A stretch of 64,000 bases of DNA, taken from contig JANQSJ010000010.1 in the NCBI GenBank assembly GCA_028284065.1, forward strand, positions 62,001-126,000. Reading direction: 5' to 3'. Origin of the DNA: Parvularculaceae bacterium. Its GTDB lineage: Bacteria > Pseudomonadota > Alphaproteobacteria > Caulobacterales > Parvularculaceae. Shown piece after piece: positions 4,436-53,192 of this stretch (position 1 is its first letter; each line of letters opens with the position of its first letter). The notes below the pieces were generated by a model. The model saw only the letters and a program-made list of their open reading frames with translations, was not told the DNA's origin and made no database searches. Both the position numbers and the translations under genes were made by a program.

Positions 4436-5386
4436 ATGATTGATTCCGTCCTACTCCACATCGGGTATCCAAAAACCGGCACAACGACGCTGCAACAGAC
4501 ACTGTTTCCCGCCGCGCCGTCCGTGAAATTCCTTGGCAAGGGTAAGGCTGAGACGCCTCAGTCGATCGATGCTTTGCGAAAAATCATCAATTATGGCTCC
4601 GGTTTCCATGTATCAAAGCATGGACCGACGATCGCCAGGGCTCTCACAGAGGCCAACGCGGGCGAAGAGACGGGCAAGCTGCTTCTGTCGCTTGAAGGGT
4701 TCACCAATCCGTTTGTCGATACCCATTACATTCAGCCAAAAGACGTTCTGAAGAAGATCGACGACATTCGGACAGTGTTCGCGCCGATGATGGGCGAAGG
4801 CGTCGCCGTCAGGATTCTCGCCACGCTCCGGAACCAGACGGAACTCCTGCCCTCCCTATATTCCCAGATTTACCTCCAAGGGTTTGCGACCGGCCTGTTC
4901 CGGTCGAGCTATGACAGTTTCCTCGACTTTATGTTTGAGGATGAAGTCCTCGGCTTCGGTCCGGATTTCTACTTTGATATCGTGCTTGATCGGTGCCGTG
5001 AACATTTTGGCGAGGCGAACGTCTTCGCAGCGTCGATGAATGAGGTGTTCGGCAACGGCGGCGAACGAGGCGTCAAGGCGCTGTCAAGCTTCCTCAGCCT
5101 CGACGAGGATGAATGCGTGAGCCTTATCGGAGACGCCAAGCACAATGTCCGAAACAGGGCGGACACAAACCAGCGCAAAATGATGGCGGTTTCGCCGGGC
5201 GTGCGCCGCTTTGAAGAAAATACGGGCGCCTCGATAATGTCGAAAGCGTTTGCGTTGACGGAACGGTTGAAAATCAGAAAAGGCGAAAGCGTGTACAGGA
5301 GCCTGCCCGACCGTAGCGAGAGAATCGCCGCGTATTACGCCGGCTCAAACGCCCGCCTTGAGGAGAAGCACGGCGTGGCCGTCTAG
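4436..5386 (+). CDS. P-loop sulfotransferase-like protein
   Basis: The protein has 316 residues. At residues 8-18 it carries HIGYPKTGTTT, the 5'-phosphosulfate-binding loop typical of PAPS-dependent sulfotransferases. A second region with a conserved Arg and Ser (LRNQTELLPSLYSQIY, about residues 128-143) fits the 3'-phosphate-binding segment. Such enzymes transfer sulfate from PAPS to carbohydrate or lipid hydroxyls. The gene is alone: divergent from membrane-protein genes and 49 bases ahead of trmFO, which has no functional link. Two more sulfotransferase-like proteins are encoded at 9978 and 17479, so sulfated glycans are plausible for this organism. Confidence 0.82.
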   Translation: MIDSVLLHIGYPKTGTTTLQQTLFPAAPSVKFLGKGKAETPQSIDALRKIINYGSGFHVSKHGPTIARALTEANAGEETGKLLLSLEGFTNPFVDTHYIQPKDVLKKIDDIRTVFAPMMGEGVAVRILATLRNQTELLPSLYSQIYLQGFATGLFRSSYDSFLDFMFEDEVLGFGPDFYFDIVLDRCREHFGEANVFAASMNEVFGNGGERGVKALSSFLSLDEDECVSLIGDAKHNVRNRADTNQRKMMAVSPGVRRFEENTGASIMSKAFALTERLKIRKGESVYRSLPDRSERIAAYYAGSNARLEEKHGVAV

Positions 5387-9977: not shown

Positions 9978-12377
9978 ATGGGCAAAGATCGGCTGAATTT
10001 TTCTGAGGCGTTGCTGGTTTTGGGCATGCACCGAAGCGGCAGCTCCGCCCTGACGCGCTGTCTGTCCGTTCTCGGATATGCGCTGCCCAGAAATCTCATC
10101 AAGGACAATCGAACAAATCTCCGTGGCCACTGGGAATGCCAGCCGCTCGCGCGCCTGAATGATTCATATCTCGAAGAAGCGGGCCTCGAATGGTCCGATT
10201 GGCGGAGCGGAGGACTTGATCGCGTCGGCGAGGGATTTCGCCGGGACTTCCAGACCGACCTCTGGCGCCTGCTCGCCTCGGAATTCCCCTCCGATGTGGC
10301 TCCCGTCATCAAAGAGCCGAGAATATGTCGTCTCGGCGGAACGTATAAAGACTTCTTCAAGAAAAACGGCGTCGCCGCGAGCTACGTCGTTGTCTTCCGC
10401 CATCCCCATGAAGTTTGCTCTTCCCTTGGCAAGCGCAACGGCCTTCGACGGCTGGATGCGGCGCTGCTTTGGCTGAGATACACGCTCGACGCGGCGATGG
10501 CCGCAAGAGGCGAGCCATGCGTTTTCGTCGCCTACGACAAGCTCCTTGATGATCCGATCGCCGTCTTGTCCCATATCTGCGACTGTCTTTCGCTTAACCC
10601 GCTGCGACGGCTTGAAGACGCGAGCGACGAAATAGCCGCTTTCCTGTCATCCGACCTCCGCCACAATACGAGCCGTACGGAAGACGTCATTCACGACGAC
10701 TTGACGCGCGGATGGATCAGCGACGTCTATGAGGCGCTTCGAATTCTCGCGAAAAATCCGACGGCGCATGAACCGCTCGAGACGCTCTCTCGGGTCCACG
10801 CTGAATTCACGGCGGCTTGCCCTTTTCTTGACGCTGCGCTCACCGAAACTCGCGACGCCGCCGCCGAGGCGGATGAGGCGCTGAAAACCGCGAACGCAGC
10901 TTCCGAACTTCGCGCCGAGCAGATCCGCATCTTGCGAGACGAAAAAATCCAAGCAGCGCGAATGCACGAGGAAATCGAGGCCGCGCTTCGCGGGAGTGTC
11001 GAAGAAGAGCGACAGGTCGCCGCGGCCCAAAAGAAACAAACAGAAAAGCTCACGCTTCGACAATTGGACCACGAGCGAAACGCACGCGCCGACCTACAGG
11101 ACGCGCAAAATGTCGCCGCGGCCCAAAAGAAGCAAATAGAAAAGCTGACGCTTCGACAAAAGGAATTGGAGAAGGCGGAACGCCGGCTTCAACGGCGATA
11201 TCTTCGCGTTCAGGACGAACTCGCCTACCGCAAGGACATGATCGCGAATCTGCACAATTCGACAATGTGGCGGCTAACCGCGCCGCTGCGCCGCGGCGTC
11301 GAGATTTACCGTGGAGTCAGGCATTCTATAGCGGCGCGACTCTCGCGCAGGCGCGAAAGTAGCGACACCGCATCGGCGCAGAAGGAAGACAAGCCGAGCC
11401 AGGCCTCGCCGGTCGCCGATGCGAGCAAGGCTGGGCTCGTAAGGGAATCTAACCTCTTTGACCAGGCCTGGTATCTCGCCAGCTATCCCGATGCGCAGCT
11501 GCACCCTACCGGCGCCGCCGCGCACTATGTGACCGAAGGCTGGCGAAAGGGATATGATCCAAGCGCAGCATTCAATACGAAGGCTTACATCGCTTCCCAT
11601 AAAGACCTTCTTGACCCAGATGAATGCCCTCTAGTCCACTATCTGACTAAGAAAACAGATCGAAAGCCGACATCTTCGCGTGGGCGCGAGAACCAAAAGA
11701 TAGCGGTCTTCACGGCGATTGCGGGGGAATACGACCTGCTTGTTGAACCGGCGAAGGGGTCGGCAGGCGCTGATTTCTTCGTCTTTACGGATGACGTAAA
11801 CGGCCGTTCTTCCGTGTGGCGTCAGGAGCCTTTCGAATATGTCTCGGGGGATCCAACGCGGACCGCGCGCTTTGTGAAAACCCATCCTCACCTGTACTTT
11901 CGGGACTACGACTGGGCGATTTGGCTTGACGGCAATCTCATTCTGAATTGCGATCCGAGAGAGCTTCTTCCTACTGACGATATATCAGCCAGCGTTTTCA
12001 CCTGGAAACACCCTTTGCGAAACTGCGTTTATGAAGAGGGCAAGGAGTGCATTCGCCGGGAAAAGGATGACACGGAGATCATTGAGGCCCATATTCATAA
12101 CTTGCGCAAAAGCAAGTTTCCCGAGCGGGCGGGCTTATTTGAAACGAGCGTTTTCGTAACGCGTCTTGGCGCGCCTGACATTAAGGCTTTCTACGACGCC
12201 TGGTGGAGCGAGATCGACCGGGGCAGCAAGCGCGACCAATTAAGCTTGCCAGTCGCCATCAAGAAATCGGGCGTCAAAGTCGGTTTTCTTGGCGATGACC
12301 GAATGTGCATGCGAACCGATCCGCGCGTCCTTTATCACCGCCATGTGCAGATCGAAGATGCGCGAGCGGATCAATAA
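9978..12377 (+). CDS. Sulfotransferase-like / coiled-coil / 38-residue repeat / DUF616-like fusion protein
   Basis: This 799-residue multidomain protein has four visible parts. Residues about 9-280 are a P-loop sulfotransferase-type domain (GMHRSGSSAL near 16). Residues about 290-420 are Glu/Lys/Arg-rich and predicted coiled coil, with the block AAQKKQ.EKLTLRQ repeated twice, followed by the STMWRLTAPLR motif often found after coils in glycosyltransferases. Residues about 492-565 hold two degenerate copies of the 38-residue FDxxWYLxxxPD repeat also found in the genes at 47834 and 54418. Residues about 573-795 resemble DUF616 (TOD1/MUCI70-type glycosyltransferase-like) with IWLDGNLILN as a candidate metal/nucleotide site. 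It likely sulfates and glycosylates a surface glycan (inference). The next gene starts 15 bases later. Confidence 0.8.
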   Translation: MGKDRLNFSEALLVLGMHRSGSSALTRCLSVLGYALPRNLIKDNRTNLRGHWECQPLARLNDSYLEEAGLEWSDWRSGGLDRVGEGFRRDFQTDLWRLLASEFPSDVAPVIKEPRICRLGGTYKDFFKKNGVAASYVVVFRHPHEVCSSLGKRNGLRRLDAALLWLRYTLDAAMAARGEPCVFVAYDKLLDDPIAVLSHICDCLSLNPLRRLEDASDEIAAFLSSDLRHNTSRTEDVIHDDLTRGWISDVYEALRILAKNPTAHEPLETLSRVHAEFTAACPFLDAALTETRDAAAEADEALKTANAASELRAEQIRILRDEKIQAARMHEEIEAALRGSVEEERQVAAAQKKQTEKLTLRQLDHERNARADLQDAQNVAAAQKKQIEKLTLRQKELEKAERRLQRRYLRVQDELAYRKDMIANLHNSTMWRLTAPLRRGVEIYRGVRHSIAARLSRRRESSDTASAQKEDKPSQASPVADASKAGLVRESNLFDQAWYLASYPDAQLHPTGAAAHYVTEGWRKGYDPSAAFNTKAYIASHKDLLDPDECPLVHYLTKKTDRKPTSSRGRENQKIAVFTAIAGEYDLLVEPAKGSAGADFFVFTDDVNGRSSVWRQEPFEYVSGDPTRTARFVKTHPHLYFRDYDWAIWLDGNLILNCDPRELLPTDDISASVFTWKHPLRNCVYEEGKECIRREKDDTEIIEAHIHNLRKSKFPERAGLFETSVFVTRLGAPDIKAFYDAWWSEIDRGSKRDQLSLPVAIKKSGVKVGFLGDDRMCMRTDPRVLYHRHVQIEDARADQ

Positions 12378-12391: not shown

Positions 12392-13300
12392 ATGGCGCTG
12401 CCGTCCCTCACGATAATCGTTTGCGTCCACAACGCTCTTGAAGACGTCAAGCTCTGCCTAGCCTCCCTAAGCAGGGCGGAATACGACGGCCCCCTTTCCA
12501 TTATTATTGTCGATGATGGATCAGATTCGGCGACGGCCGGATACCTTGAACTCTTCGCTGAGGGCGCGCCTGACGTCCGGCTGATCCGCAGGGACAAAGC
12601 GCACGGCTACACGAATGCGGCGAACGCGGGACTGAAAGCGGCGACGACGGAGTTACGAATCCTCTTGAACAGCGACGCCGTTGCGTCGCGCCAGTCATTT
12701 CGCAAGATCGCCGAAGTATTCATCAACAGCCCCGATGTCGGCGTCGTCGGCCCCCTGTCGAACGCCGCAAGCTGGCAATCCGTGCCCGACCTTTCCGCGC
12801 CGGAGGGCGGGTGGTCGAAGAACCCGCTGCCGGACGGCGTTACGGCCGACGATATGGACCGCATTCTTGACGCGGCTGACGTCGATCTTCCGAAGACGGT
12901 CCGAACCCCGCTTGTAAATGGATTTTGCTTTGCGATACGGCAATCCGTAATCCAACAAATCGGCTATCTTGACGAGGCGTCTTTTCCGCGCGGCTACGGC
13001 GAAGAGGACGATTACTGCTTGCGCGCGGCGGACGCAGGATTTGGCGTCGCCATCGCCATCAGAGCGTTCGTCTTCCACGCAAAGTCCAAAAGCTTCGGGG
13101 CGGAGGCCCGCTCAAAACTCAATGCGTCCGGTCAGGTCGCGCTGAAGACCAAGCATGGCGAAGCCCGTCTAAAGAGGGCCGTCGAGACGCTGCGGCTGAA
13201 CCCTTATCTCGGCGCCATGCGCGATGCGGTCAGGGCTGGCCTCGCCGCAACGCTTCAATCTCACCGCACGGGCGATGAACTGCGTCTCGCAGGGCGTTAG
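12392..13300 (+). CDS. Family 2 glycosyltransferase
   Basis: With ATG at 12392 (AAGGAC at 12376-12381 as ribosome site, 14 bases after the previous stop), the protein has 302 residues. The GT-A fold is clear: LTIIVCVHNALEDVKLCL at the start, VDDGSDSAT near residue 36, LNSDAVAS near residue 92 (DxD-equivalent), and FPRGYGEEDDYCLRAADAGF near residue 200, a typical acceptor-side block with the catalytic base. Enzymes of this subgroup are usually rhamnosyl- or related transferases for O-antigen or capsule. It is translationally close to the sulfotransferase/DUF616-like gene, so both likely act on one glycan. Confidence 0.9.
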   Translation: MALPSLTIIVCVHNALEDVKLCLASLSRAEYDGPLSIIIVDDGSDSATAGYLELFAEGAPDVRLIRRDKAHGYTNAANAGLKAATTELRILLNSDAVASRQSFRKIAEVFINSPDVGVVGPLSNAASWQSVPDLSAPEGGWSKNPLPDGVTADDMDRILDAADVDLPKTVRTPLVNGFCFAIRQSVIQQIGYLDEASFPRGYGEEDDYCLRAADAGFGVAIAIRAFVFHAKSKSFGAEARSKLNASGQVALKTKHGEARLKRAVETLRLNPYLGAMRDAVRAGLAATLQSHRTGDELRLAGR

Positions 13301-13408: not shown

Positions 13409-14440
13409 CTACCAATACGCTGCGCTCTGATTTTCTGGATACCGACCAGTTGCAAAAAACCAGGTTTCCAGAGCGTAGCGTTTTTGAGTAAATTCCGCGC
13501 CGAAAGAAGTAGAGTGTAGATTGAAGTGATCAAAAAAAACCGCGTCGCCCACATTGAATGTCGGCCGAACCGGCGGCGTATCGGCGAACTTTTCGCGCAC
13601 CGTTTTTGCTGACACGGACCAATCGAAATTTGCGCCATTAACGCCCGGGTCGACTATTTCCCAAAGGCGCTTCGGCACCAGGTCAATTCCGGGCGCGTCC
13701 ATGCCCTCGCCGCACGGCGTCAGTGCGACCCAGAGATTCAGGCTCTTGATGTCCGCGGTCATGAAGGCGCCGTCCTGGTGCCAGTCGGCGGGCGACAGAA
13801 GCGGCGAAACACGACGAAGCAATGACTTTTTGAACGACACGCAGGGCTCATCCGAAAAGTATGCGCGGAGGAGGCTGCGCAGTCCGAGCCGATCGAAGGC
13901 CGTAAGCAGATGATCGGTCGTCCGCGGCGACATGAACATTTCGATCGCCCCAGTTTCACGCACGAACACAACATGCTCCCGCGTCCTTTTTTCCTGCACG
14001 AGGGGATGAAACCACTCTGCGTCCTCAGCAGGAACATTTCCCATGCCGTCCGGCTGTCTCCGAGCTTCGGCCTCGGACGCTTCAAACGTCCGTTGGATCA
14101 TTGAGCGAAGCACAGCCGCCTCAGGCTTCTCGATTAAACCTCTGATGATCAGCGCGCCATGCCGCCGCATGGCGCAGGCCAGCACACCGATTTCCAGATC
14201 ATCCGCGGCGATCTCGGGGATCTTGCCCTTGGAGATCTTTGGAAGCGCGCCGGAGTCAGCCGGCAGGAGTTCGCCATTAAATTGTGGAGCGCACACCGCG
14301 TCATCGAACCAATGCACCCTCGCGTCCCGCATCGCGATCAGCGACGCCAAATCACCCTTAACCCGCACTGCCCTATGCAGCAGACCCCAATACTCCTGAT
14401 CCCGCTCCGAACGGGCGCTTTGCGGAATCGGCTCAACCAT
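13409..14440 (-). CDS. PhyH-like Fe(II)/2-oxoglutarate dioxygenase
   Basis: The protein has 343 residues. The iron-binding HxD motif is at H221-Q-D223, and a distal histidine at H305 or H309 with a following Arg in QKRYALETWF fits the 2-oxoglutarate-binding end of the phytanoyl-CoA dioxygenase superfamily. Bacterial members hydroxylate very different small molecules, sugars or lipids, so the substrate is open. The gene is inserted on the opposite strand between glycosyltransferase genes; a 71-base divergent gap separates it from the 14512 gene. The location suggests a tailoring step on a glycan or its lipid, but this is inference. Confidence 0.85.
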   Translation of the reverse strand: MVEPIPQSARSERDQEYWGLLHRAVRVKGDLASLIAMRDARVHWFDDAVCAPQFNGELLPADSGALPKISKGKIPEIAADDLEIGVLACAMRRHGALIIRGLIEKPEAAVLRSMIQRTFEASEAEARRQPDGMGNVPAEDAEWFHPLVQEKRTREHVVFVRETGAIEMFMSPRTTDHLLTAFDRLGLRSLLRAYFSDEPCVSFKKSLLRRVSPLLSPADWHQDGAFMTADIKSLNLWVALTPCGEGMDAPGIDLVPKRLWEIVDPGVNGANFDWSVSAKTVREKFADTPPVRPTFNVGDAVFFDHFNLHSTSFGAEFTQKRYALETWFFATGRYPENQSAAYW

Positions 14441-14511: not shown

Positions 14512-17472
14512 ATGTCGCAGGCGTTCGGCCTTGCGCGGACCTGTCTAGTGGAAGGCCTAACATCAATGTCACGGCAACTGGATCCCAATAACGAGATCGA
14601 TCGCCTCATGGAGCACATCGCCGCTCTCGAGTCCGAGCGCGACTGGATGAAAGCGAGAGATCACAGATTCCAGATGCTAATCGACAATATCTCCGATCAG
14701 TTGGAAACGGCGAGCGTCAGGCTGGACCGCGTCGAACGCGAATTCGCCGGCATCAGTTTTGTCATCGCCTACTATGATATCCCGCGCCAGATCGAACGCA
14801 CACTGCTGTGCTGCTCCCCTGCCTATCAGGGCGTCGAGAACGACGAAATTGAGGTCATTCTTATCGACAACGGGTCGACGCAGCCGCCGCCCGAAGACCT
14901 GCAGGAGAAGTTTCCGCACATCTCAAAAATCATCAGGGTCGAGGGTCGCCCCTCACCGGTTGAAGGCCTGAACCGGGGCATTGAGGAGGCGCGGTTCAAC
15001 ACAGTGGCGGTGATGATCGACGGCGCCCATCTATTGTCACCAGGCGTCGTGTCGAACGCTCGCGATGTCGTTCGCTTGTTCGACAATCCTGTCATAAACG
15101 TGCCCCAGTATCTGCTCGGCTCGGTCGCCCAGAGTCTCTCAACCGGCGAACAGGCATTCGAGCGCGAAACGCAGACGCTGAAGGAACTTGGATGGCCAAA
15201 GGACGGCTACCGACTATTTGACTACGCTACATATCCGGGAGAAAATTATGAGAAGTCGTTTTTCTCGGCGATTGAATCGAATTGCCTAATCTCGACAAAG
15301 AGCGTTTTCGAGGCGAGCGGCGCATTCGACCTCCGTTTTGACGAACCGGGCGCCGGCTTCGCAAATCTTGAGCTTTTCTCGCGGCTTATTCACAATCTTC
15401 AAAACGCATACGTCATTCTGTTGGGGGAAGGCTCTTTTCATCAGGATCATCGTGGCGTAACGACCCAAAGGTCGCCCGAAGAACGCGAAGACATCATCCG
15501 TCAATACAGGGTCCGGTTTAAGGAGGTCACCGGCAGCGAGACGGTTTTAAACACTCGCAGCCCTTTCGTTTTCGGCGTCACGCGCCATTCCGCTCAGCGA
15601 GTCCCGACGATTTCACGCGAATACAGGATCGCGCGAACGCGAATCCTCCGTCAACTCGCCAACATATATGTGGCGCGCGCACAGAGTGGCTTGACGGACA
15701 AATATACGCCCCAACTCGCCGTTGGCGGCTCGCCGGATGAGCGGCTTGCCCGTATCCCAATTAAACCGCTTGGGCTTCGCCCCAAAACGGCTGATAAGAA
15801 CGGCGTGGACCAGAAAGCGCTTGGCTACGTCAAGTGCCTCCAGAAAATTCATAAGCGCATCAATCCAGAGCTTTACTTTGAGATTGGCGTTGACACCGGC
15901 GCAAGCCTTAGACTCGCCAAGTGCGATAGCATCGGCGTCGATCCAGGCTACTTCATATCAAATGCCATTACCGCTTCGTGCCGTCTGTTCCGTGAAGAAA
16001 GCGATGCTTTTTTCGAAAACCGAGAACGCTGCGCCAAACTGTTTGCACGTGGCATAGACTTCGCCTTCATCGACGGCATGCATTTGGCGGAATATGTCCT
16101 GCGAGACTTCATCAATGTCGAGAAGTGGATGAATGAGGACGGCGTCGTCGTTTTCGACGACGTGCTGCCCGAACGTCTCGAGGTGCTTGAGCGCGAACGA
16201 CGGTTCAACGCCTGGTGCGGGGACGTCTACAAGATTGTCCCGCTGCTGAGGCGGCATCGCCCGGATCTGAATATCCGAGTCGTGGAGGCGTTTGTCGGCC
16301 CTTACAGGAAGGGCCTGGCGGTGGTGACGGGACTTAACCCAAAGAGCGCCATTCTCGAAGAAAAACTGCCGGCGCTCGAAAAGGAAATACTCGGCGATAC
16401 GTATACGGTAGAGTCCATTGAGCAATTGGAGGAGATGGCGAACATATCGAAGATTTCGGTCTTGAACGACCTGCCGCGCCGGAAACGCGAATCTCAGCCG
16501 GCGAGTCATTCTCCTTCGACATGCGAACCCCCGGCGATCGGCGCTTCGGAAAGCGGCGTCGATCCGTCTCCCATTACGCCCTGCCCGAAGCTTTCATTGG
16601 TCGTCGTCGCCTACGACATGGCTCGCGAACTGCCGCGCACGCTGTTGTCCCTGTCGGCAAAAATGCAGAGGGATGTGTCGCCGGAAGACTATGAGGTAAT
16701 TGTCGTCGACAATGGCTCTCCTGAGCCGGTCAGCATAGAAGCGGTTAAGGGTGAATTCGCAAACATAAGGTTGTTAAGGCTTCCGCCCGGTCGGCAATCG
16801 CCCTGTCACGCCGCAAATGCAGGGGTGGAGGCCGCGCTTGGCCCGCTTATCGGCGTTCTGATTGACGGCGCACGCATGGCGTCGCCCGGCCTTGTCCGCG
16901 CAGCGATCGACGGACTCGCCCTGTCGCCGAACGCTGTCGTCGGCGCCCATGGCTTTCATCTCGGTGAGGACATTCAGCAGGTTTCCGTCAAGAACGGCTA
17001 CGACCAGACGACCGAAGACGCATTGCTAGAGTCGGTCGCGTGGGAGCGGGACGGCTACCGTCTGTTCGACATTTCGACGCCGTCAAAATCATCCGGAAAA
17101 GGATGGTTCACCCTGCCATCGGAAACGAATTCCCTTTTCATGCGCAAGACGTTCTGGGCGAGCCTGGAGGGCTATGACGAGCGGTTTCAGTCGCCCGGCG
17201 GCGGCCTCGCCAATCTTGATATCTGGAAACGGGCGTGCGAGACCCCGGGTGCGACGCCGATCATCATGCTTTGTGAGGGAACGTTCCATCAGGTTCATGG
17301 CGGCGTCACGACGAACGCGGAGCAATCGACGCGCGCCGCCTTTGATGCGGAGTACGCACGTATCCGCGGCGCGCCCTATCGGCGCCCTGATGTCGAAGCC
17401 CTTTTTGTCGGCCGGCCGAATCCAGCAGCGCTTTCAAAAATGGGCCGGCTTATCAAGCCGGCGCAGGAGTAG
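14512..17472 (+). CDS. Bifunctional glycosyltransferase: GT2 / SAM-methyltransferase / GT2 fusion
   Basis: The 986-residue protein has three catalytic-looking parts. Residues about 80-345 form one GT2 domain (FVIAYYDIPRQIERTL, LIDNGS, MIDGAHLLSPG). Residues about 450-600 match class I SAM-dependent methyltransferases of the cephalosporin-hydroxylase/CmcI-like type (YFEIGVDTGASL, FIDGMHLAEYVLRDF, VVFDDVLPE). Residues about 690-960 are a second GT2 domain (LVVVAYDMARELPRTLLSL, VVDNGSPEP, IDGARMASPG). The two GT2 domains share the I.YD...ELPRTL and IDGA motifs, suggesting internal duplication. The start could also be the ATG at 14566, which has a better GGAAGG ribosome site. It probably elongates and methylates a glycan chain. 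Six bases separate it from the sulfotransferase gene. Confidence 0.85.
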   Translation: MSQAFGLARTCLVEGLTSMSRQLDPNNEIDRLMEHIAALESERDWMKARDHRFQMLIDNISDQLETASVRLDRVEREFAGISFVIAYYDIPRQIERTLLCCSPAYQGVENDEIEVILIDNGSTQPPPEDLQEKFPHISKIIRVEGRPSPVEGLNRGIEEARFNTVAVMIDGAHLLSPGVVSNARDVVRLFDNPVINVPQYLLGSVAQSLSTGEQAFERETQTLKELGWPKDGYRLFDYATYPGENYEKSFFSAIESNCLISTKSVFEASGAFDLRFDEPGAGFANLELFSRLIHNLQNAYVILLGEGSFHQDHRGVTTQRSPEEREDIIRQYRVRFKEVTGSETVLNTRSPFVFGVTRHSAQRVPTISREYRIARTRILRQLANIYVARAQSGLTDKYTPQLAVGGSPDERLARIPIKPLGLRPKTADKNGVDQKALGYVKCLQKIHKRINPELYFEIGVDTGASLRLAKCDSIGVDPGYFISNAITASCRLFREESDAFFENRERCAKLFARGIDFAFIDGMHLAEYVLRDFINVEKWMNEDGVVVFDDVLPERLEVLERERRFNAWCGDVYKIVPLLRRHRPDLNIRVVEAFVGPYRKGLAVVTGLNPKSAILEEKLPALEKEILGDTYTVESIEQLEEMANISKISVLNDLPRRKRESQPASHSPSTCEPPAIGASESGVDPSPITPCPKLSLVVVAYDMARELPRTLLSLSAKMQRDVSPEDYEVIVVDNGSPEPVSIEAVKGEFANIRLLRLPPGRQSPCHAANAGVEAALGPLIGVLIDGARMASPGLVRAAIDGLALSPNAVVGAHGFHLGEDIQQVSVKNGYDQTTEDALLESVAWERDGYRLFDISTPSKSSGKGWFTLPSETNSLFMRKTFWASLEGYDERFQSPGGGLANLDIWKRACETPGATPIIMLCEGTFHQVHGGVTTNAEQSTRAAFDAEYARIRGAPYRRPDVEALFVGRPNPAALSKMGRLIKPAQE

Positions 17473-17478: not shown

Positions 17479-18216
17479 TTGACGCGATTTCCGAACCTGC
17501 TCCTTGCGGGCGTGCAGAAGTCCGGCACGACCTGGCTTCACAACACCTTGTCGATGTCGGGGCACATTCTCGGTTCGACGCCGAAAGAGCTTAACTTGTT
17601 CGGGCAGCCGGATTATCGCAGCCGGTTGGATGGATACCGCGCGCATTTTTCGAGCGATGCGAAACCCCGCGCCTCCTATTTTCTGGAGAGCACGCCGCAT
17701 TACTTTCACGCGCCCACAGTTTTGTCCGATGTGCCCGGTCAGATCCGCGAGACGATCGGCGACGTTCAGATCATGGTCGTCCTGAGGAACCCTGTCGACC
17801 GGTACCGGTCCGCATACACGCACCATATGCAAAAGGGCAGGCTCGCCTATACCCCATTTATCGATACGCTGACGGATGAGCAGATCATGTTGGCGACCGG
17901 CCTCTACGGAGATATCCTGCCCCATTGGCGGCGCGTTTTCCCGGATATGCTGGTCTACTCCTACGACCAGCTACAGTCCGACAAGGCCGCGTTTCTCCGC
18001 ACGCTCTTCGTTGATCTGGGGCTTGAATGCGATCTCGACCTCGCAGACTTGCCGGCCCCGACGCACACGTCGACCGACAAACGCGCAGCCGCCGATTGGC
18101 CCGACACGCCGCAGCTGACGCCGGACTTGCGCGCCCGCTTAATCGACTATTACCGCGCGGACGTGGAGCGGTTGGCCGAGCTTGTCGATTTCGACGTCCT
18201 TCGCTGGCTTCTGTGA
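17479..18216 (+). CDS. Sulfotransferase family protein
   Basis: The protein has 245 residues and starts with TTG at 17479, supported by AGGAG about nine bases upstream. The PAPS 5'-phosphosulfate loop is GVQKSGTTWLHN (residues 11-22), and the 3'-phosphate site is VVLRNPVDRYRSAYTHH (residues about 97-113), the classic heparan-type sulfotransferase pair. It follows the GT2-methyltransferase-GT2 gene by six bases, so the two are certainly co-translated from one message. It is the second sulfotransferase of this block and most likely decorates the glycan built by its neighbours. It ends convergent with nhaA. Confidence 0.92.
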   Translation: MTRFPNLLLAGVQKSGTTWLHNTLSMSGHILGSTPKELNLFGQPDYRSRLDGYRAHFSSDAKPRASYFLESTPHYFHAPTVLSDVPGQIRETIGDVQIMVVLRNPVDRYRSAYTHHMQKGRLAYTPFIDTLTDEQIMLATGLYGDILPHWRRVFPDMLVYSYDQLQSDKAAFLRTLFVDLGLECDLDLADLPAPTHTSTDKRAAADWPDTPQLTPDLRARLIDYYRADVERLAELVDFDVLRWLL

Positions 18217-41853: not shown

Positions 41854-41979
41854 GCCCTTGATGTAGGAGGCTTTGCACCGCCCGGCAAGATAAATGTTGC
41901 ATAAATGATGGTATTCGCCCTTGCCTGTGCTATGTCATGGAACTATATAAGATGCATAAGCATCGCAAACGGTTACACC

Positions 41980-42933
41980 ATGTCGCAACATTTTCTCCTC
42001 TCCGCCGCCTCTAAGACCTTGAAGCTCAAGGACATCTACAAGGCTGGTGAGGAAGCGGCATACCGGAAGTTCTGCGACATTCGTTGGGCTGAAAACGACG
42101 GCGACGCCGTTTGCCCCCGCTGCGGCCACACTGACGCCTACGACATCAAGACCCGCCGCAAGTTCAAGTGCAAAGCCTGCCATCACCAGTTTTCGGTGAC
42201 GTCGGGGACAATTTTCGCTTCGCGCAAGCTCGATTTCACCGACCTGCTGGCGGCGATCTGCATCATCGCCAACGCTTCCAAGGGCCTGTCGTCGATCCAG
42301 CTAAGCCGGGACTTGGGCGTTCAGTACAAGACGGCATTCGTTCTTGCGCACAAAATCCGCGAGGCGCTGTCGCGCGAGACGGCTGACGCGAAGCTAGACG
42401 ACGAAGTCGAAATCGACGGCGCCTATTTCGGAGGCTCGATTCGTCAGGCGAACGAGAAAGAAGACCGGATCGATCGTCGCCGCTCACGCCACCAGACCGG
42501 CAAGCGCCGCGTTGTCATTGCGCTTCGCGAGCGCGGCGGTCGTACTCTAACGACCGTTGCCGAACGTGAGTCGGACGGTGTGGCGTTCGCCAAGGCGCGC
42601 CTGGAAAATGGCACGATCGTCAACGCCGACGAAGCGTCGCATTGGGATGCTCTGGACGACGTCTTCCCGACCGAGCGCATCAATCATTCGGAAGCCTATT
42701 CGCTCGCCGGCGTGCACGTGAACATGGCGGAAAGCTATTTCTCGCGCCTGCGCCGGATGGTCGGCGGTCAACATCATCACGTGTCGCCGAAGTACCTGCA
42801 TCAGTATGCAGCGCACGCTGCATGGCTGGAAGATCATCGCCGGTCGTCAAACGGCGCGCTGGCTGGACGGAGTGTTCACAACGCAATGGCTTCGCCGGTC
42901 AGCCGGACATGGAAGGGGTATTGGCAACGCTAG
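41980..42933 (+). CDS. IS1595-family (ISXO2-like) transposase
   Basis: From the ATG at 41980 the protein has 317 residues; an upstream in-frame start at 41905 would add 25. The N-terminal zinc ribbon is CPRCGHTDAYD...CKACHHQF (residues about 42-70), and the DDE-type domain has DEVEIDGAYFGG, NADEASHWDAL and HVNMAESYFSRLRR with HHVSPKYLHQY. These are the usual signatures of IS1595 transposases. The length is complete and no internal stop is present, so the enzyme could be active. Confidence 0.93.
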   Translation: MSQHFLLSAASKTLKLKDIYKAGEEAAYRKFCDIRWAENDGDAVCPRCGHTDAYDIKTRRKFKCKACHHQFSVTSGTIFASRKLDFTDLLAAICIIANASKGLSSIQLSRDLGVQYKTAFVLAHKIREALSRETADAKLDDEVEIDGAYFGGSIRQANEKEDRIDRRRSRHQTGKRRVVIALRERGGRTLTTVAERESDGVAFAKARLENGTIVNADEASHWDALDDVFPTERINHSEAYSLAGVHVNMAESYFSRLRRMVGGQHHHVSPKYLHQYAAHAAWLEDHRRSSNGALAGRSVHNAMASPVSRTWKGYWQR

Positions 42934-42994
42934 TGAACAGCCGCGTTACTACCGCCACACCCGGCGCCAGATATGCCAGCGCAGCCCCGGCGCA

Positions 42995-43420
42995 CTAGCG
43001 CCTTATAATCCGCCAGCGGCCCACAGCGCCGTCTCCGATCCGTTCAATCACGCCCCTGAGTTTCTTACGATCCAAGGTGCGGGACACCTTCAGGCGTAGT
43101 TCGCGATTGAATCGCTCGTGATCGTTGTCCCAGCCCTTCTGGAAGCAGACGCGATCTACGATTTCGCGGAGCCCCAAGCCCTCGGGATGTGCCCTGAGCA
43201 ATTGCATGACGATCCGCGGCAGCTCGCCAGTGTAGAACAAGCCCGCCGCCATAGTCTTCTTCGGCGCCTCCGCGCCATCAGGGTAATAACCAAGGTGAAA
43301 GAGCGTTGCGTCGATGTGCGCCAACGTTGTCTTCAGGTCGCAGACTATCGCCTCATGATCCCGCAGGCGGGAAAGGACGTTCTTGCGTTCTGAAATGAGC
43401 GCCTGCGCCACGGGTTCCAT
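42995..43420 (-). CDS. IS1595 passenger: 141-residue protein, unknown function
   Basis: The protein has a coiled N-terminal half (LISERKNVLSRLRDHEAIV, TTLAHIDATLFHLG) and a C-terminal half that reads like a winged-helix domain (LPRIVMQLLRAHPEGLGLREIV, VSRTLDRKKLRGVIERI). It lies between the transposase and the right terminal repeat, on the opposite strand. I know no specific function; similar small proteins are often encoded in IS or phage contexts. It may have a regulatory role (inference). Confidence 0.65.
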   Translation of the reverse strand: MEPVAQALISERKNVLSRLRDHEAIVCDLKTTLAHIDATLFHLGYYPDGAEAPKKTMAAGLFYTGELPRIVMQLLRAHPEGLGLREIVDRVCFQKGWDNDHERFNRELRLKVSRTLDRKKLRGVIERIGDGAVGRWRIIRR

Positions 43421-43489
43421 GACGGCAGTTTAGGGATTCACGGACCCGATAAGCAGCGCTATTCTTGGTGCGTTTGCTACATAAGTCCG

Positions 43490-43497
43490 CTGGCGCT
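43490..43497. repeat. Right copy of 8-bp target duplication CTGGCGCT
   Basis: Exact repeat of 40750-40757, directly outside the right terminal repeat of the IS1595-family element. Its last six bases begin the IS6-type terminal repeat. Confidence 0.9.
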
Positions 43498-44341
43498 GAC
43501 AGGCTGATGCTAACTTGTCTCCATTGATAGCTGGAGGCAAAGGATGACGGACGGGATTTCCTTCAAGCGGCATGGATTTCCGCCAGACGTCATCCGCTAC
43601 GCCGTCTGGCTCTACTACCGTTTCACCCTAAGCATTCGGGACGTGGAAGAGCTTTTGGCGGAACGCGGAGCCGACCTCAGCCGAGAGTCCGTCCGCTACT
43701 GGGTAGTGAAGTTCGGTCCGAAGATAGCCGCCAATCTCAAGCGCCGGCGATTGCCGCCAACTGGCCGCTGGCGCCTCGACGAGATGGTCGTGCGGATCGC
43801 CGGCAGGCGCTTGTGGCTGTGGCGCGCCGTCGACGACGAGGGCGATGTTCTCGACATGCTGGTCCAAAAGCGACGCAACGCCAAGGCGGCGAAGAAACTA
43901 TTGCACCGCTTGCTGAAGAACACTGGCGTTAGACCTGAGTGCATTGTCACCGATAAGCTCAGATCCTATCCGAAAGCGATGCGGGAGAACGGCTTATCGG
44001 AACGCCACAAACCTGGCGGTCTTCAAGAAAACGACCTGGCAGAGAACTCGCACTTACCCAGCAGGCGACGAGAACGAAAGCAGCAGAAGTTCAAATCGCA
44101 GGGATCAGCACAGAGGTTCCTCGCCGCCCACGCCGCCGTCTACAACTGCTTCAATACCGACACCCACCTCGTTTCCCACCCCGCCCTAAAGGTTCTCCAC
44201 GCCAAAGCGCACGCAGAGTGGAGAGAAGCGACGAAGGCGGCGTGAGGTTACTCGGCAACGGGAGAATTGCGACCAAGACGAGTTAAGTTGTCAGTTCCCG
44301 CGCCGCTATCAAAGATCGCTTCGCACTGAAGTGTCAGCGCC
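43492..44341. mobile_element. IS6-family element (850 bp), interrupted next to its left end by the IS1595 element
   Basis: Perfect 10-bp terminal inverted repeats GGCGCTGACA lie at 43492-43501 and 44332-44341; both are followed inward by TGC-N-AA at the same distance. The 850-bp length and single transposase fit IS6. The IS1595 element inserted six bases into the left repeat, so the first six bases are duplicated at 40752-40757. Restoring the site puts the left junction five bases after the tRNA-Ser. The flanks beyond the restored element do not show an 8-bp target duplication. Confidence 0.75.
43544..44245 (+). CDS. IS6-family transposase
   Basis: The 233-residue protein is complete. It has FPPDVIRYAVWLYYRFTLSIRDVEELL near the start, RLDEMVVRI (first catalytic Asp), VTDKLRSYPKAMRENG (second Asp) and AENSHLPSRRRERKQQKFKS with the catalytic Glu, followed by AQRFLAAHAAVYNCF. 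IS6 transposases make cointegrates by replicative transposition, and pairs of such elements often remodel neighbouring DNA. No frameshift or stop is seen, so it could be active. Confidence 0.94.
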   Translation: MTDGISFKRHGFPPDVIRYAVWLYYRFTLSIRDVEELLAERGADLSRESVRYWVVKFGPKIAANLKRRRLPPTGRWRLDEMVVRIAGRRLWLWRAVDDEGDVLDMLVQKRRNAKAAKKLLHRLLKNTGVRPECIVTDKLRSYPKAMRENGLSERHKPGGLQENDLAENSHLPSRRRERKQQKFKSQGSAQRFLAAHAAVYNCFNTDTHLVSHPALKVLHAKAHAEWREATKAA

Positions 44342-44376
44342 TGCAGCTAAGCCGGGCCTTCCCACAATTCAATCAG

Positions 44377-47300
44377 GTGGAGGCCTTTCTGAAAAGGCCG
44401 AGGACCGATAGCATCGCCTCCACCACCGATAGGACCCACCCCGCAATGAGAGCCGTCGCCAACGCCACCGCCCGACTTTTCTGGCGGGTTATCCCGTTGA
44501 GTCCAGCCACCCGTGGGCGCCTGGCCGGTCGGCTGTTCAGGGCTTTCCCCGCGGCTTTCGCGTGGACCCCCGCATATCGGGCCTGGAAAGCGGAAGAGGA
44601 CGCCAAAGCCGCCGAGGCTCAAGCGATAAAGCGCGTGGCGGCGATGGAAGTACACGGCGAAGCGGAAACCTACTTGCCGCTTTTGTCATTCGCGCCGCCG
44701 ACCGATGTCGACGTCAGAACAATCGCGTTTTATCTCCCGCAATTCCACCCGATCCCCGAAAACGACGAATGGTGGGGAGACGGCTTTACCGAGTGGGCCA
44801 ATGTGCGCGCTGCGTCGCCGCAGTTTGAAAACCAATTGCAGCCGCGCATTCCAGGCGAACTAGGATATTATGATTTGATGGCGGACGATGGCGTCATGAA
44901 CCGTCAGGCGGAACTCGCCCGCCTTCATGGGGTCAGCGCTTTCTGCTTCTATTTTTATTGGTTCGCCGGCAAGCGACTTCTTGAGGGGCCAATCAAGCGA
45001 TATATGGAAGCGCCCGAGGCCGACCTGCCATTCTGCCTGTGTTGGGCAAATGAAAACTGGTCAAGACGCTGGGACGGACGCGACGATGATTTACTGATTA
45101 CACAGGATCACTCGCCTGACGACGACCTCGCTTTTATTGGTCATATCGCGCAATACCTGCGCGATCCGCGCTATTTGCGGATCAACGGGAGGCCGGTTCT
45201 CCTCGTTTACCGCCCCGCCCTATTGCCAAATGCAGCGGAGACTGTCGCGCGTTGGCGCGACTTCACCCAAAAAAATGGCATTGACGATTTGTATCTCATC
45301 TGTACCGAGAGTTTTGAGACCGGCGATCCGGCGGCGTTCGGTTTCGACGCGGCGACCGAGTTTGCGCCTAATAATATGGGCCTCGAGCCGAAGCCCCATC
45401 TTGTTACGCCATTGCATGAAGACTTTGCCTGCAAGATCTATGATTGGCGCGAACTGGCGAATCGCAGCCGAAACTACGCGGAGCCGGACTACAAACTATT
45501 CCGCAGCGTCACCCAAAACTGGGACAACACGCCCCGGCGCGGCGCCACTGCCGGGGTTCTTGTCGGCGCGACGCCCTCAGTTTACGAGCTCTGGTTGGCG
45601 AACGCAGCGAAGGATACCCGCAGACGGTTTGATCAGCCTGAAGAACGGCTGATATTTGTGAACGCCTGGAACGAATGGGCGGAAGGCGCTTATCTGGAGC
45701 CAGATACGCACTACGGCTACGCTTGGCTTGAAGCGACGCGACGCGCCCTTTCGCCGGCCGCGGCGGCTGAGCGTCCTCGGTTCATTATTGTCACGCACGA
45801 TTTGCGCCGACACGGCGCTCAGAACCTCGCTCTCAACCTCATCAAGACACTTAAGAAACACTATGGCGCAAGTGTCGCCACCATTGCGCTTGGAACTGGC
45901 GACATGGCGCCTGATTTCGCGGCCGAGGGGCCGCTTCAGCTACTCAATCCCGCCGTCGCCACCCTCGAACAAATCGATGACGCCATCACGCGTCTGAAAG
46001 AGCGTGGGTTCGACCGCGCGATCGTCAATTCCGCGGCATCAGGCGGCATCGCCGAACACTTGGCGCGACACCGCATCTGCTTTATCGGCCTGATCCATGA
46101 AATGTCGAAGATCATCGACCGAATGGCGCTTTGCGAGGCTCTTCGCTCGCTAAATGACCACGCGGAAGCGATTGTCTTCCCCGCCGCCCTTGTTCGCGAT
46201 AGCGCAGCTTCCGCTAGCGTTGGGACGTGGCGCAACGCCGTCATTCAGCCGCAGGGCATATATAAACCCGACGGAATTGCATCGTATGCTGAAAAAGAAT
46301 CCGCGCGACGCAGTGTCTGTCAACTGATCGGCGCTGACCCGGACCGCGGACGGATCGTGCTTGGCGTCGGCTTCGCCGATCATCGCAAAGGCGTTGATAT
46401 CTTCATCCGCTGGGCGATTTCTTCGCTCAAGAAGTTTCCACACCTTCATTTCGTATGGCTGGGCGCCACTGACCCCGAGTTCAGCCAAGCAATCGACGAA
46501 CTATTGGAATTGGCTGGCCCTCATCGCGACCGGATCCATTTTCCCGGCTACGTCCAGGATACGGCCGTCTACTATCGCGGGTCCGCCCTCTATGCGCTTT
46601 CATCGCGCGAAGATCCCTTTCCTTCAACGGTCCTCGAGGCGCTCGTGGCTGGAACGCCCGTAATTATGGTCGACGGAGCGACAGGCGCGACGGATTTCAA
46701 GGGCGAGCCGTTTGTGGCGGCGATACCTGATGCGTCGCCGGAAGCGTTCGTGGCGGCGGCGGAAAGTTTCCTGACCACACCCGCGTCGACTCAAGCCGCT
46801 GCGGAACAAGGCGTCGCCAGAATGCAGGGCGACTTCGGCTTCGCGTCCTACGCTGGCGACCTGGCGCGGCTTGCCGGCGCACGCGCGCCGGCGATCTCAG
46901 CAGTCGTGCCCAACTACAATTACGCAGGCTATCTAGAAAAGCGATTGCGCTCAATTCTGGACCAGACCCTCGCGCCTCGGGAGATAATTATCCTCGATGA
47001 TGCATCGACGGACGAAAGCATCGCCGTGGCGCGGCGAACGCTGAAGGACGCCCCCATCAATTGGCGTGTCGTGACCGCCGAAACGAATTCCGGCAGCGTG
47101 TTCGCTCAATGGCGCAAGGCGGCGCGCGAGGCGACAAGCGAGCTCCTCTGGATCGCTGAAGCCGATGATTGGGCGGACCCCAGGTTCTTGGAGATGACTG
47201 CGCGGACGTTTGCACAAAGAGATCTCGTTATGGCGTTCACGCAGTCATATCAGGCGGACGCCAATGGATCGATCCTCGCCACCAGCTATCAGGGCTATGT

Positions 47301-47766
47301 TGAAGATGTCTCATCGACACGGTGGCGGACAAGCTACTACGCATCCGGGCCGCAAGAGATTGTCGAGGGCCTTTCGGTCAAGAACACGATCCCGAATGTG
47401 AGCGCTGCGCTGTTCCGACGTGACGTTTTCCGCGCGACAATAGAAAACAGTTTTGACGAGATCGCTTCATTCCGGGTCGCCGGCGACTGGTGCGCCTATG
47501 TCGGCGTGCTATCGAAGGGCGACATCGCCTTCATTTCGGCGCCGCTCAACTTCCACAGACGCCACAGCGACAGCGTGACGATAAATCGATTTGGCCTGCC
47601 AGAGCTGGCCGAGATCGCTCGCATGCAGCGCCGCGTGGCTGCGGAATTTGACCTACCGGACTTATATAGAGAAAAAGCGAAAGACTATCTCAGCGCGCTA
47701 GTGCAGGAATTCGGGCTCAACGAGCGGTACAGCGAATTCGAGATCGCCAGGGCGATCAACGCCTGA
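44377..47766 (+). CDS. WbsX/GH99-like - GT4 - GT2 fusion protein (1129 aa)
   Basis: Three catalytic-type domains are visible. Residues about 115-455 are a WbsX/GH99-like domain: TIAFYLPQFHPIPENDEWWG, FCFYFYWFAGKRLLEGP, CWANENWSRRWDG and NAWNEWAEGAYLEPD. Residues about 465-835 are a family 4 type glycosyltransferase with a UDP-sugar-binding part (GVGFADHRKGVDIFI, FPSTVLEALVAGTPVI). Residues about 840-1110 are GT2 (ISAVVPNYNYAGYLEKRL, ILDDASTDES, EADDWADPRFLE). The GTG at 44377 is the first start; ATG at 44446 is an alternative. Neither has a strong ribosome site. WbsX-type genes are found in O-antigen and capsule loci. It probably adds several sugars in sequence. Confidence 0.88.
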   Translation: MEAFLKRPRTDSIASTTDRTHPAMRAVANATARLFWRVIPLSPATRGRLAGRLFRAFPAAFAWTPAYRAWKAEEDAKAAEAQAIKRVAAMEVHGEAETYLPLLSFAPPTDVDVRTIAFYLPQFHPIPENDEWWGDGFTEWANVRAASPQFENQLQPRIPGELGYYDLMADDGVMNRQAELARLHGVSAFCFYFYWFAGKRLLEGPIKRYMEAPEADLPFCLCWANENWSRRWDGRDDDLLITQDHSPDDDLAFIGHIAQYLRDPRYLRINGRPVLLVYRPALLPNAAETVARWRDFTQKNGIDDLYLICTESFETGDPAAFGFDAATEFAPNNMGLEPKPHLVTPLHEDFACKIYDWRELANRSRNYAEPDYKLFRSVTQNWDNTPRRGATAGVLVGATPSVYELWLANAAKDTRRRFDQPEERLIFVNAWNEWAEGAYLEPDTHYGYAWLEATRRALSPAAAAERPRFIIVTHDLRRHGAQNLALNLIKTLKKHYGASVATIALGTGDMAPDFAAEGPLQLLNPAVATLEQIDDAITRLKERGFDRAIVNSAASGGIAEHLARHRICFIGLIHEMSKIIDRMALCEALRSLNDHAEAIVFPAALVRDSAASASVGTWRNAVIQPQGIYKPDGIASYAEKESARRSVCQLIGADPDRGRIVLGVGFADHRKGVDIFIRWAISSLKKFPHLHFVWLGATDPEFSQAIDELLELAGPHRDRIHFPGYVQDTAVYYRGSALYALSSREDPFPSTVLEALVAGTPVIMVDGATGATDFKGEPFVAAIPDASPEAFVAAAESFLTTPASTQAAAEQGVARMQGDFGFASYAGDLARLAGARAPAISAVVPNYNYAGYLEKRLRSILDQTLAPREIIILDDASTDESIAVARRTLKDAPINWRVVTAETNSGSVFAQWRKAAREATSELLWIAEADDWADPRFLEMTARTFAQRDLVMAFTQSYQADANGSILATSYQGYVEDVSSTRWRTSYYASGPQEIVEGLSVKNTIPNVSAALFRRDVFRATIENSFDEIASFRVAGDWCAYVGVLSKGDIAFISAPLNFHRRHSDSVTINRFGLPELAEIARMQRRVAAEFDLPDLYREKAKDYLSALVQEFGLNERYSEFEIARAINA

Positions 47767-47833
47767 CGATTTCCTGCATGAAGCGGCTTCTTCTCGGATA
47801 GACAAGTCTATAGCGGCGCGGGTCGAAGGCGCG

Positions 47834-50800
47834 GTGAGTACGACGAAAGGTTCGATCATGTACGATCAACATCGTGCGGGCGAAGGGAATAGAAGCGTGG
47901 CGAAGTCCGAACGGGATAGCGTGATCATTGCCCTTCGCGAGCAACTTGACCATCAACGCGCAGCCTTTGAATTGACCGCCGCAAAACTTGGTGCGGCTGA
48001 GGCGCGTCTGACCGAGCGTGAGAACAAATGTCGTGAGCTTGAGCATCGTCTGAAAAAGGGGCAGGCGGACCAAGAAGCCGCCGCCGCTCGCCGAAGGGCC
48101 GCCATCCTATCCGATCGCGCGCAATTCGCGTCGCTGGAAGCCCAAGTCGCGCAACTGCTGACGCGAATTGGCGCCTTGGAAGCTGAGAATAGTCAACTCT
48201 CAACCCTTTCAGCTGAGATGCAGGCTTCGCCGCGCTGGCGCGCGGGCAAGGTGGCGATGGTGCCGCTCGCCCCAATTTTCTGGTGGCGTCGACGCAGCAA
48301 GGCCCACGGCCTCGAGCGGCAGGTCGCGGCCGTCGACGCCTCAGGTCTCTTCGACGCAGACACTTATCTCAAGGAAAATCCCGACGTCGCGGCGGCGGGC
48401 GTTAATCCGCTGAAGCACTATTTGGACATCGGCTGGAAGGAAAGCCGCAATGCCGGACCCAGTTTCGATGGCGATTGGTATTTGGAACAAAACCCAGATG
48501 TTAAAGACGCCGGCGTCTGCCCGCTCCTACACTATCTGGAGAATGGTCGCGCTGAGGGTCGACATCCGGCGCCACCGTCCAGCGCTAGTGCGGACAAGGT
48601 CAAGGGTCGCAAACTCCCGCCTGCGCCGGATCTATTTGCGCTGCGCGCCCACAGCCGACGCGCCGAGCGGGCCGTCGTCGCCTGGTTGCCGGACGCGGAG
48701 TCGGCGGAGGCGCTTCGAAGAGCGCTCGGCGAGAGAGCCCAAACCGTTGACTTGATTGTCGCAAGAGCATCGGGAGCGCCGGACGGCGAGAGGATCGATT
48801 CAATCACTGCCAACCCGGCCACCGACTCGGTGGCGTTTTCGATCGCATACACGCCGGCGCAAATCTTGCTGCATTTTGCAATGGAAGGTCCGTTGCGCGA
48901 ATTCACGAGCGTCATCTGGATCGACGGGTCCGCAGTGACCGATTGGACAACGACGACAAGCGCGCTGCAATTGCTCCTCACCGCGCCGCCTGCGGCAAAC
49001 CTCACTGCCGATGCGCTTAACTCGACGCCTGCAAGTGTCGCGGCCAGCCTCGAGAACAAAATAAAGCGGTTCGTCCTGCGTCTTGGCCGCCGGCCTCATG
49101 TGGATGTAGATGCCGTCTATCCGGCCGGCGCCCTACTTGAAATTCCCTCACTATTCATTGAGCAGTTGCGCGCTTACCAGATGCGGCCCGCCGATCTATT
49201 CCTCCGCACCGAGTCAGTCGCGCAATCAGATCGAACAAGGACCATCGACTCCAACGACAGCAGAGCTGTCCTTTTTGGCGTCCTGAACATCATAGCTCAG
49301 GAAGCGGATCTGCCGGTACAGACTGTTGAGACTGTTTCAGTATCGCCGACGCCAGATGACAACGGCGCGTCGGTGAAGACGATCGCCTTCTATCTTCCAC
49401 AATTTCATCCCATTGCGGAGAATGACGCCTGGTGGGGACGCGGCTTCACTGAATGGAGCAACGTCACCAAGGCCCGAAGCCTCTTCGATCGGCACCACCA
49501 ACCTAAATTGCCCGCGGATTTAGGTTACTACGACCTTCGCAACGCAGACACTCAATTGGCTCAGGCCAATCTCGCGCACGACCATGGCGTCTACGGATTT
49601 TGTTACTATTATTACTGGTTTGGCGGAAAAAAAATCCTGAACCAACCGATCGAACAAATGGTCGAGAGCGGCGAACCGGACTTTCCTTTTTGCGTTTGCT
49701 GGGCGAACGAGAATTGGTCTCGAAACTGGGACGGGCAAAACCGCTACGTGCTCTTGAAACAGACTTATTCTGAAGAATCGAATCGCGCCCTGATTCGCGA
49801 GTTCATTAAGTTGATGAGAGATCCGCGCTACATCCGCTTCAACGGTAAGCCAGTCCTCATCGTCTATCGGATACGCATCATCCCCAACTGGCGCGAATCC
49901 GCCGAGATGTGGCGGTCAGAATGCCGCAAAGCGGGGATTGGCGAGATCCATCTGTGTGCGGTTCGCTTCGGCCTGGAGCCGCTTGAGGGCGCGCCGGAGG
50001 AGTTTGGGCTAGACGCGTACGTCCTTTTCCCGCCTCATGAAACCCGCCGCATAGATGCGCGCGGACATGTCCCAAATTTGAATGGCGAGTTCAATGGCGA
50101 GATTTTCGGCTATGATGACGCGGTGGAAGGCGATCTTGAGCGTTTTGACAACGGCGCTCCATGGCCCGTCCACAGGGGCGCAATGGTCGACTGGGACAAC
50201 ACGGCTCGTCGCCCAAAGGATTCCCGGATCTACTTCGGCTCAACGCCAGCTCGTTTTTACAATTGGCTGAAGAACATTATTCAGCAGGAAGACAAAAATT
50301 ATCCCGATCGGAAGGAACGCCTCGTATTCATTAACGCCTGGAATGAGTGGGCCGAAGGCGCCATGCTCGAGCCGTCACAGCTATTCGGGCGCGGCTATCT
50401 CAAGGCGGTGAAGCGCGCAATCGGCGATCGCGCGGCTGATCGCCCGAGGCCGTCTCCCGTCTTGCCTATACCCTCCCACGCCGTTGACGCTTCCAGCCCG
50501 CCAACCGCTGTCGATACGCAATGGGTCAATGGCGCGGCTGAGAGAATCAGCGGCGCGCCGACTGTCCTTCTTTGCGCTCATATTGTCAGCCATGAGCTAT
50601 TCGGGGCGGAACGCAGCTTTCTTGACATGCTGGACGCGATGGAAGCACTTCGCGTCAATGTAATTGTCGCGCTGCCGACAGATAAACATCCATTCTATAC
50701 GGAGTTAGTTAGGACGCGGTCAATCGGCGTAAGCACTATTCCTTACGAGCAGTGGAGCGATGATCGTGAGCCAGACGAAAACATCGTTGCCGCCTTCAAC

Positions 50801-52823: not shown

Positions 52824-52872
52824 GCCCCCTAAAGTTGGGCCACGTTTTGGCGTAGGTTTCTAATTTTGGGGA

Positions 52873-53169: not shown

Positions 53170-53192
53170 CCCCAGAGCAACTGCGTCAGGCC

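Follow-up and report, generated by a model that had tools for sequence, protein, structure and literature searches.

A sulfotransferase joined through a coiled coil to a GT116-like domain in a Parvularculaceae genome, with a layout like that of coiled-coil polysaccharide terminators

The DNA analyzed here, hereafter the window, is a 64,000-nucleotide stretch (positions 62001–126000) of contig JANQSJ010000010.1, C17 of the 3.7 Mb assembly of a Parvularculaceae bacterium. An open reading frame on its + strand (positions 9978–12377, ATG start) encodes a 799-residue protein in which a PAPS-type sulfotransferase domain (ST) is followed by a coiled coil, an SxxWRxTxPLR segment, two repeats and a GT116-like domain of Pfam family PF04765 (TOD1_MUCI70, old name DUF616; CAZy family GT116). 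A preliminary description made from the sequence alone had placed a sulfotransferase-type and a DUF616-like domain in this single reading frame, and Pfam searches confirmed both. Sulfotransfer_3 (PF13469) matched residues 13–206 marginally, at 28.0 bits versus a cut-off of 27, and TOD1_MUCI70 matched residues 625–763 at 38.2 bits versus a cut-off of 21.4, with the match spanning only the C-terminal half of the profile (141–288 of 314). The hydrophobicity of the protein, at best 0.98 as a 19-residue mean, is nowhere strong enough to indicate a transmembrane helix.

The sulfotransferase domain, delimited by HMM to residues 12–253 (10011–10736; + strand, as for all features of this gene), keeps all of its active-site motifs in alignment. 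These are the 5'-phosphosulfate loop GMHRSGSS (residues 16–23; 10023–10046), which matches RSGT of TPST2, the KEPR motif (residues 112–115; 10311–10322), which has an invariant K and R and matches KDP of tyrosylprotein sulfotransferase (TPST), and the 3'-phosphate site R141...S149 (RHPHEVCSS; 10398–10424). Every position that is invariant in alignments of 19 and 21 ST domains is also found in the fusion protein, and the 5' loop and the R...S of the 3' site are invariant throughout (19/19 and 21/21 rows). The ST family profile matched TPST in the PDB at E 9e-8, with the RSGT loop, KDP and R...S aligned. Structure prediction, which the preliminary description had proposed for both ends of the protein, gave an ST model (pLDDT 90.5) nearest to TPST1 (Z 16.4, rmsd 3.7, 218 residues aligned), and the modeled domain is a P-loop sulfotransferase fold of TPST-like type. 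The fold and the positions of the P-loop, KDP and R...S can thus be aligned with TPSTs and the Sulfotransfer_3 family, while identity is only ~13% and the domain sits N-terminal to a coiled coil. Its acceptor is probably a glycan, unlike that of TPSTs. The source genome encodes an APS kinase domain and can therefore make PAPS.

The PF04765 domain extends by HMM over residues 574–779 (11697–12314). Within it, DGN (residues 651–653; 11928–11936) lies right after a strand in the model, like a DxD motif, and its aspartate, D651, is invariant in 28/28 PF04765 rows; RDQ (residues 752–754; 12231–12239) is kept among PF04765 relatives. All invariant positions in alignments of 12 and 28 PF04765 domains are present in the fusion protein. 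A PDB sequence search with a profile of the domain returned no match, and the predicted model of the repeats plus the C-terminal domain (pLDDT 88.7) was nearest to the GT6 blood-group enzymes and LARGE1 (Z 12.3); as modeled, the PF04765 domain has a GT-A fold with a DxD-like motif. In the literature, PF04765 members are classed under GT116 as RG-I galacturonosyltransferases (PMC11765706, PMC10576798), the activity itself being known only for a plant member (PMC10576798). The window protein shares this Pfam family with plant RGGAT1/MUCI70, above the curated cut-off, and differs in being bacterial and fused and in matching the profile over its C-terminal half only.

Arabidopsis TOD1, whose domain is named DUF616 in the same report, has been described as an alkaline ceramidase (PMC4309442), which would favor another activity than glycosyl transfer for the PF04765 domain of this protein, such as the lipid hydrolysis claimed for TOD1. 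We consider this, together with the related possibility that one half of the protein is inactive, very unlikely, given the GT-A fold match, the DxN motif with its invariant D, the recurrent GT2 partner described below and the galacturonosyltransferase activity reported in vitro for plant MUCI70/RGGAT1 (PMC10576798), and given that the ST and PF04765 sites are both intact. A degenerate PAPS site or DUF616-like site, which the preliminary description had raised as the sign of an inactive half, was found on neither side, and with all invariant residues present both halves look competent from their sequences. Stand-alone PF04765-like proteins of ~225 residues are also present on viral contigs (L104–L137), and Cellulophaga and Synechococcus phages carry similar stretches annotated as glycosyltransferases.

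The two domains are separated by a charged spacer (residues 266–427; 10773–11258) with a low content of proline and glycine (2.8% over residues 266–445). The fixed-register heptad test failed on the fusion protein, with 1982/2000 shuffles at least as good, and a 28-residue sliding test was therefore used. The coiled coil of the preliminary description is supported by the mean of this sliding test (40/1000 shuffles as high), by strong results in two orthologues (0/500 shuffles each) and by the low Pro+Gly, but neither by the fixed register nor by the sliding maximum, which was not significant (110/1000 shuffles as high). Within the spacer, 32 codons are nearly duplicated (11004–11164; copies at 11004–11068 and 11100–11164, 85% identical over 65 nt), which would lengthen it. 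In the wider set of 53 distinct ST proteins from the surveyed loci (several cut at the locus end; viral loci left out), 40 have a charged, coiled-coil-like stretch of at least 80 residues with low Pro/Gly after the ST, and 13 fall below this threshold.

At the end of the coiled coil lies STMWRLTAPLR (residues 428–438; 11259–11291). The SxxWRxTxPLR motif is found in 18/53 ST proteins, at 145–458 residues from the ST among those 18. In the fusion protein the region has a net charge of +2 to +4 and a moderate moment of 0.36–0.50 (18-residue windows starting at residues 425–437), and from its sequence it is a possible membrane-contact helix. Behind non-ST heads the motif was seen only in cut ST proteins among the fetched loci, a search that says little because these loci were chosen for ST or PF04765. 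Further downstream, the HMM places two ~38-residue helical units of the form FD..YL..YPD...HY...G (residues 493–556; 11454–11645), in agreement with the two repeat units of the preliminary description, for which the near-duplicated codons may be an alternative meaning. No Pfam match covers the ~38-residue repeats. They also stand in tandem, as FD..YYL..NPDV...G..PL.HYL..G..EGR.P, in glycan-synthesis proteins at 54418–57024 and 47834–52492 of the window and at L022:248–3889, with about 8 copies in the protein from the window; here too Pfam covers none, and two of the three, both with many copies, matched no NCBIfam family.

The preliminary description had also proposed a search for the domain pair, and this search found four further proteins that combine ST and PF04765 in a single chain, so that the idea of a fusion unique to the window was rejected. 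The relatives come from a Rhodobacteraceae MAG (L095, 42% identity to the window protein), an uncultured Caulobacterales MAG of the source genome's own GTDB order (L096, the same as G249, on one contig; 37%), a Sneathiella MAG (L097, 31%) and genome G690 from another class of the phylum (L217). The order of ST, coiled-coil-like stretch and glycosyltransferase is common to all five. ST and PF04765 were also found as adjacent separate genes at the C2 locus of the source genome (L009), at L023 (overlapping), at L094 and at L138 (8-nt overlap). A PF04765-only search of the GTDB order recovered 9 loci in 7/299 genomes; 2 of these loci are fused, and 3 have a neighboring ST gene. A class sample had PF04765 in 11/385 genomes, and none of its 11 loci outside the source genome had an ST within the flanks that were fetched. 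In a named genome collection 3/7 PF04765 loci are fused (L096 belongs to both this and the order set). These counts of ST near PF04765 are raw and not set against the frequency of ST near glycan genes in general.

In the PF04765 tree, the window protein, L095 and L096 form a clade with support of 99/99, and in the ST tree L097 pairs with L094 (support 100/97). A single origin of the first four fusions was rejected on the ST tree (p-AU 0.003, and 0.002 with more rows) and was not rejected on the PF04765 tree (p-AU 0.40). The pair has therefore been joined at least two times, unless the ST of a fused gene was later swapped. The placement of L217 is unsure: on the ST tree, p-AU was 0.062 when L217 was placed in the window group, and joining it to L097, a pairing chosen after seeing the data, gave 0.033; on the PF04765 tree p-AU was 0.056 for all five fusions as one clade.

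Directly 3' of the PF04765 domain lies a GT2 glycosyltransferase gene (12392–13300, + strand), followed by a PhyH-like (Fe(II)/2OG oxygenase-like) gene (13409–14440, − strand; Pfam 20.4, below the cut-off of 22), a gene for a 986-residue GT2-methyltransferase 24-GT2 protein (14512–17472, + strand) and a second, stand-alone sulfotransferase gene (17479–18216, + strand; PF13469 and PF00685). The first four genes of this series, beginning with the fusion, form a cassette that has the same order and strands in L095, where the GT2, the conserved PhyH-like protein and the GT2-methyltransferase-GT2 orthologue are 54%, 43% and 56% identical to those of the window. The 986-residue protein is single copy in the source genome. 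A + strand ORF at L095:9708–10775 was tried as the PhyH-like homologue and rejected; it gave no similarity because it is a shadow ORF, and the homologue lies on the opposite strand. Upstream of the fusion, window positions 4436–5386 encode a P-loop protein (GYPKTGTTTLQ) that is sulfotransferase-like and below the Pfam cut-off; it was not counted as a cassette member because its likeness to the counterpart upstream of the L095 fusion is confined to the P-loop. In L096 the fusion and the GT2 are kept (GT2 53% identity), and a GT2 gene on the other side of the fusion is 42% like part of the 986-residue protein.

That the fusion might be a chance event or an assembly error with no functional meaning appears to us scarcely credible. 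The end-to-end order is rare (2/299 order genomes, including the window's own), as such an origin would have it, but orthologues at 31–42% identity are present in three other MAGs, the L095 cassette matches in order and strands, and at least two independent fusions are seen on the ST side.

The GT2 partner is also found more widely. Of 26 non-viral loci, 11 have it immediately 3' of PF04765 (L101, one of the 26, ends at a contig edge and could not show a GT2), and several carry the two as a fusion, among them loci from two planctomycete MAGs with no ST; in L217, a GT2 lies directly 5' of PF04765 within one chain. Given the recurrence of the GT2-PF04765 pair, GT116-GT2 looks like the core module and the ST like an added one. 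A second PF04765 protein of the window (54418–57024, 868 residues: repeats, an RgpF domain and PF04765) belongs to another glycan cluster with WbsX multidomain proteins, and transposase-like genes, judged by eye from their translations, occur before and inside this cluster (41905–54017). The paralogous cluster elsewhere in the source genome (C2:340000–358000) has an ST-coiled coil gene, a repeats-PF04765-GT8-RgpF protein, PhyH, a pyruvyl transferase and an ABC-2 permease.

As genes for flagellin, FlgK, FlgE and FlgI lie 2–7 kb downstream in the window and the ST fold most resembles that of tyrosylprotein sulfotransferases, the cluster could glycosylate and sulfate a protein such as flagellin and not a free polysaccharide. 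We regard a protein target as unlikely, since NhaA separates the cluster from the flagellar genes, the Pfam-scanned neighbors of L095 and L096 include no flagellar family, the Sneathiella homologue adjoins a capsule synthesis gene, and a Cereibacter pair adjoins ABC and sugar transporters. This pair, from Cereibacter azotoformans SY5 plasmid p1 (LV780_RS19895/RS19890; L138), resembles the window fusion in its overlapping PF04765 and ST-coiled coil genes, which have ABC and sugar transporters as neighbors; it differs in having two proteins with the ST downstream and in a PF04765 protein that also has RgpF and GT2 domains. The ST-coiled coil unit stands alone in the laboratory strain Cereibacter sphaeroides 2.4.1, where its gene (DQL45_RS20675, on pA) lies beside ABC export genes, adjoins a PF04765 gene elsewhere, and is also known as a fusion with WbsX-GT4-GT2 or with GT2-GT4 modules. 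In 10/26 ST loci an ABC-2 permease gene is close to the ST (phmmer gave 8 of these, and annotation L138 and L139; L022, which has no ST, and L081, the same as L096, were excluded), a raw count that is not set against exporter frequency near glycan genes in general. Permease, ATPase and KpsC/S-type queries revealed no export gene in the window, and none in the flanks fetched for L095, L096 and L217. The whole source genome has no Capsule_synth gene; of its ABC-2 genes, only that of the paralogous C2 cluster is both clearly of polysaccharide type and close to an ST gene.

The closest functional comparison is with the ABC-transporter-dependent O-polysaccharides of K. pneumoniae and E. coli, in which a coiled-coil ruler is described as carrying the terminator at its distal end, the polymerase glycosyltransferases are C-terminal in WbbB and ORF6-O7 and recruited by WbdD, and some terminator relatives stop after the coiled coil (PMC11231755). 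The window fusion resembles WbdD, WbbB and K. pneumoniae ORF6-O7 (PMC11231755) in its N-terminal modifying head, extended coiled coil and C-terminal or partner polymerase glycosyltransferases, and ST proteins, too, occur with and without glycosyltransferases. It differs in having a PAPS-type sulfotransferase head instead of a methyltransferase, kinase or Kdo transferase, in a GT116-like plus GT2 polymerase module, in cap and ruler roles that are assigned by analogy, and in that no ABC exporter was found at the window locus. Because the head is a sulfotransferase and not a known terminating head, we describe the fusion as working like the terminators and not as a member of them. On our best reading, to which we give close to, though just short of, even chances, the fusion protein is an enzyme that assembles a sulfated polysaccharide of the cell surface and has the layout of the coiled-coil terminators.

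In such an enzyme, the C-terminal GT116-like domain and the GT2 of the next gene would elongate the chain close to the membrane, while the coiled coil would keep the N-terminal sulfotransferase at a fixed distance, and the sulfotransferase would move sulfate from PAPS onto the glycan made by these transferases. That the ST sulfates the product of GT116 and GT2 is probable. Independent fusions, gene adjacency and the conserved GT2 partner, all read from sequence, also support the earlier suggestion that the protein would tie sulfation to glycan extension. Sulfation would then most likely be restricted to chains long enough to reach the ST, which would make sulfate a length-setting end cap. By analogy with the terminators, this ruler-gated terminal cap is the leading, though unproven, form that sulfation may take, and we hold it tentatively.

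A second form of sulfation rests on the same domain, fusion and adjacency data: the ST could decorate each or many of the repeat units as GT116 and GT2 extend the chain, with a coiled coil that oligomerizes or tethers and sets no length. The second stand-alone sulfotransferase of the cluster suggests more than one sulfated position, and in Cobetia marina the CPS repeat unit itself is reported to carry sulfate, and its gene cluster to include PAPS and sulfotransferase genes (PMC11766843). Sulfation during polymerization would leave unexplained the N-terminal position of the ST, coiled coils of very different lengths, glycosyltransferases at the opposite end in most members, and the association with ABC exporters, and we give it a sizable minority chance.

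If the terminal cap is extended to the other ST proteins, they may form a widespread class of ST-headed coiled-coil rulers, in which sulfate ends chains, the coiled-coil length of the polymerase-bearing protein sets chain length, and the head has been joined separately to GT116, WbsX-GT4-GT2 and GT2-GT4; we put this forward as possible, at somewhat under even chances. Against the terminator reading we counted that no exporter was found at the window, L095, L096 and L217, the absence of Capsule_synth from the source genome, the location of its clear ABC-2 gene in the paralogous cluster, the 13/53 ST proteins below the coiled-coil threshold, the moderate amphipathicity of SxxWRxTxPLR (moment 0.38–0.50), and the 0/11 PF04765 loci with ST in the class sample. 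Published terminator caps are methyl, methylphosphate or Kdo, the string 'sulfo' being absent from PMC11231755, and no sulfated product is known.

The preliminary description had stated that no enzyme with this domain order was described. Searches of the open PMC literature (closed papers and preprints lying outside this scope) found no paper on an ST-PF04765 fusion or on a bacterial GT116 enzyme; with four relatives and a layout of known functional type, however, the window fusion does not stand by itself. Glycan assembly proteins that combine a coiled coil with a modifying head are known, and what is new is the sulfotransferase head together with GT116. If the proposed function is true, sulfate would be added to methyl, methylphosphate and Kdo as chain-ending groups, and a testable job would be given to many proteins that are annotated as nothing more than 'sulfotransferase family protein'. 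Bacterial GT116-like enzymes, for which searches of the same literature found no described role, gain a recurrent GT2 partner and a cassette.
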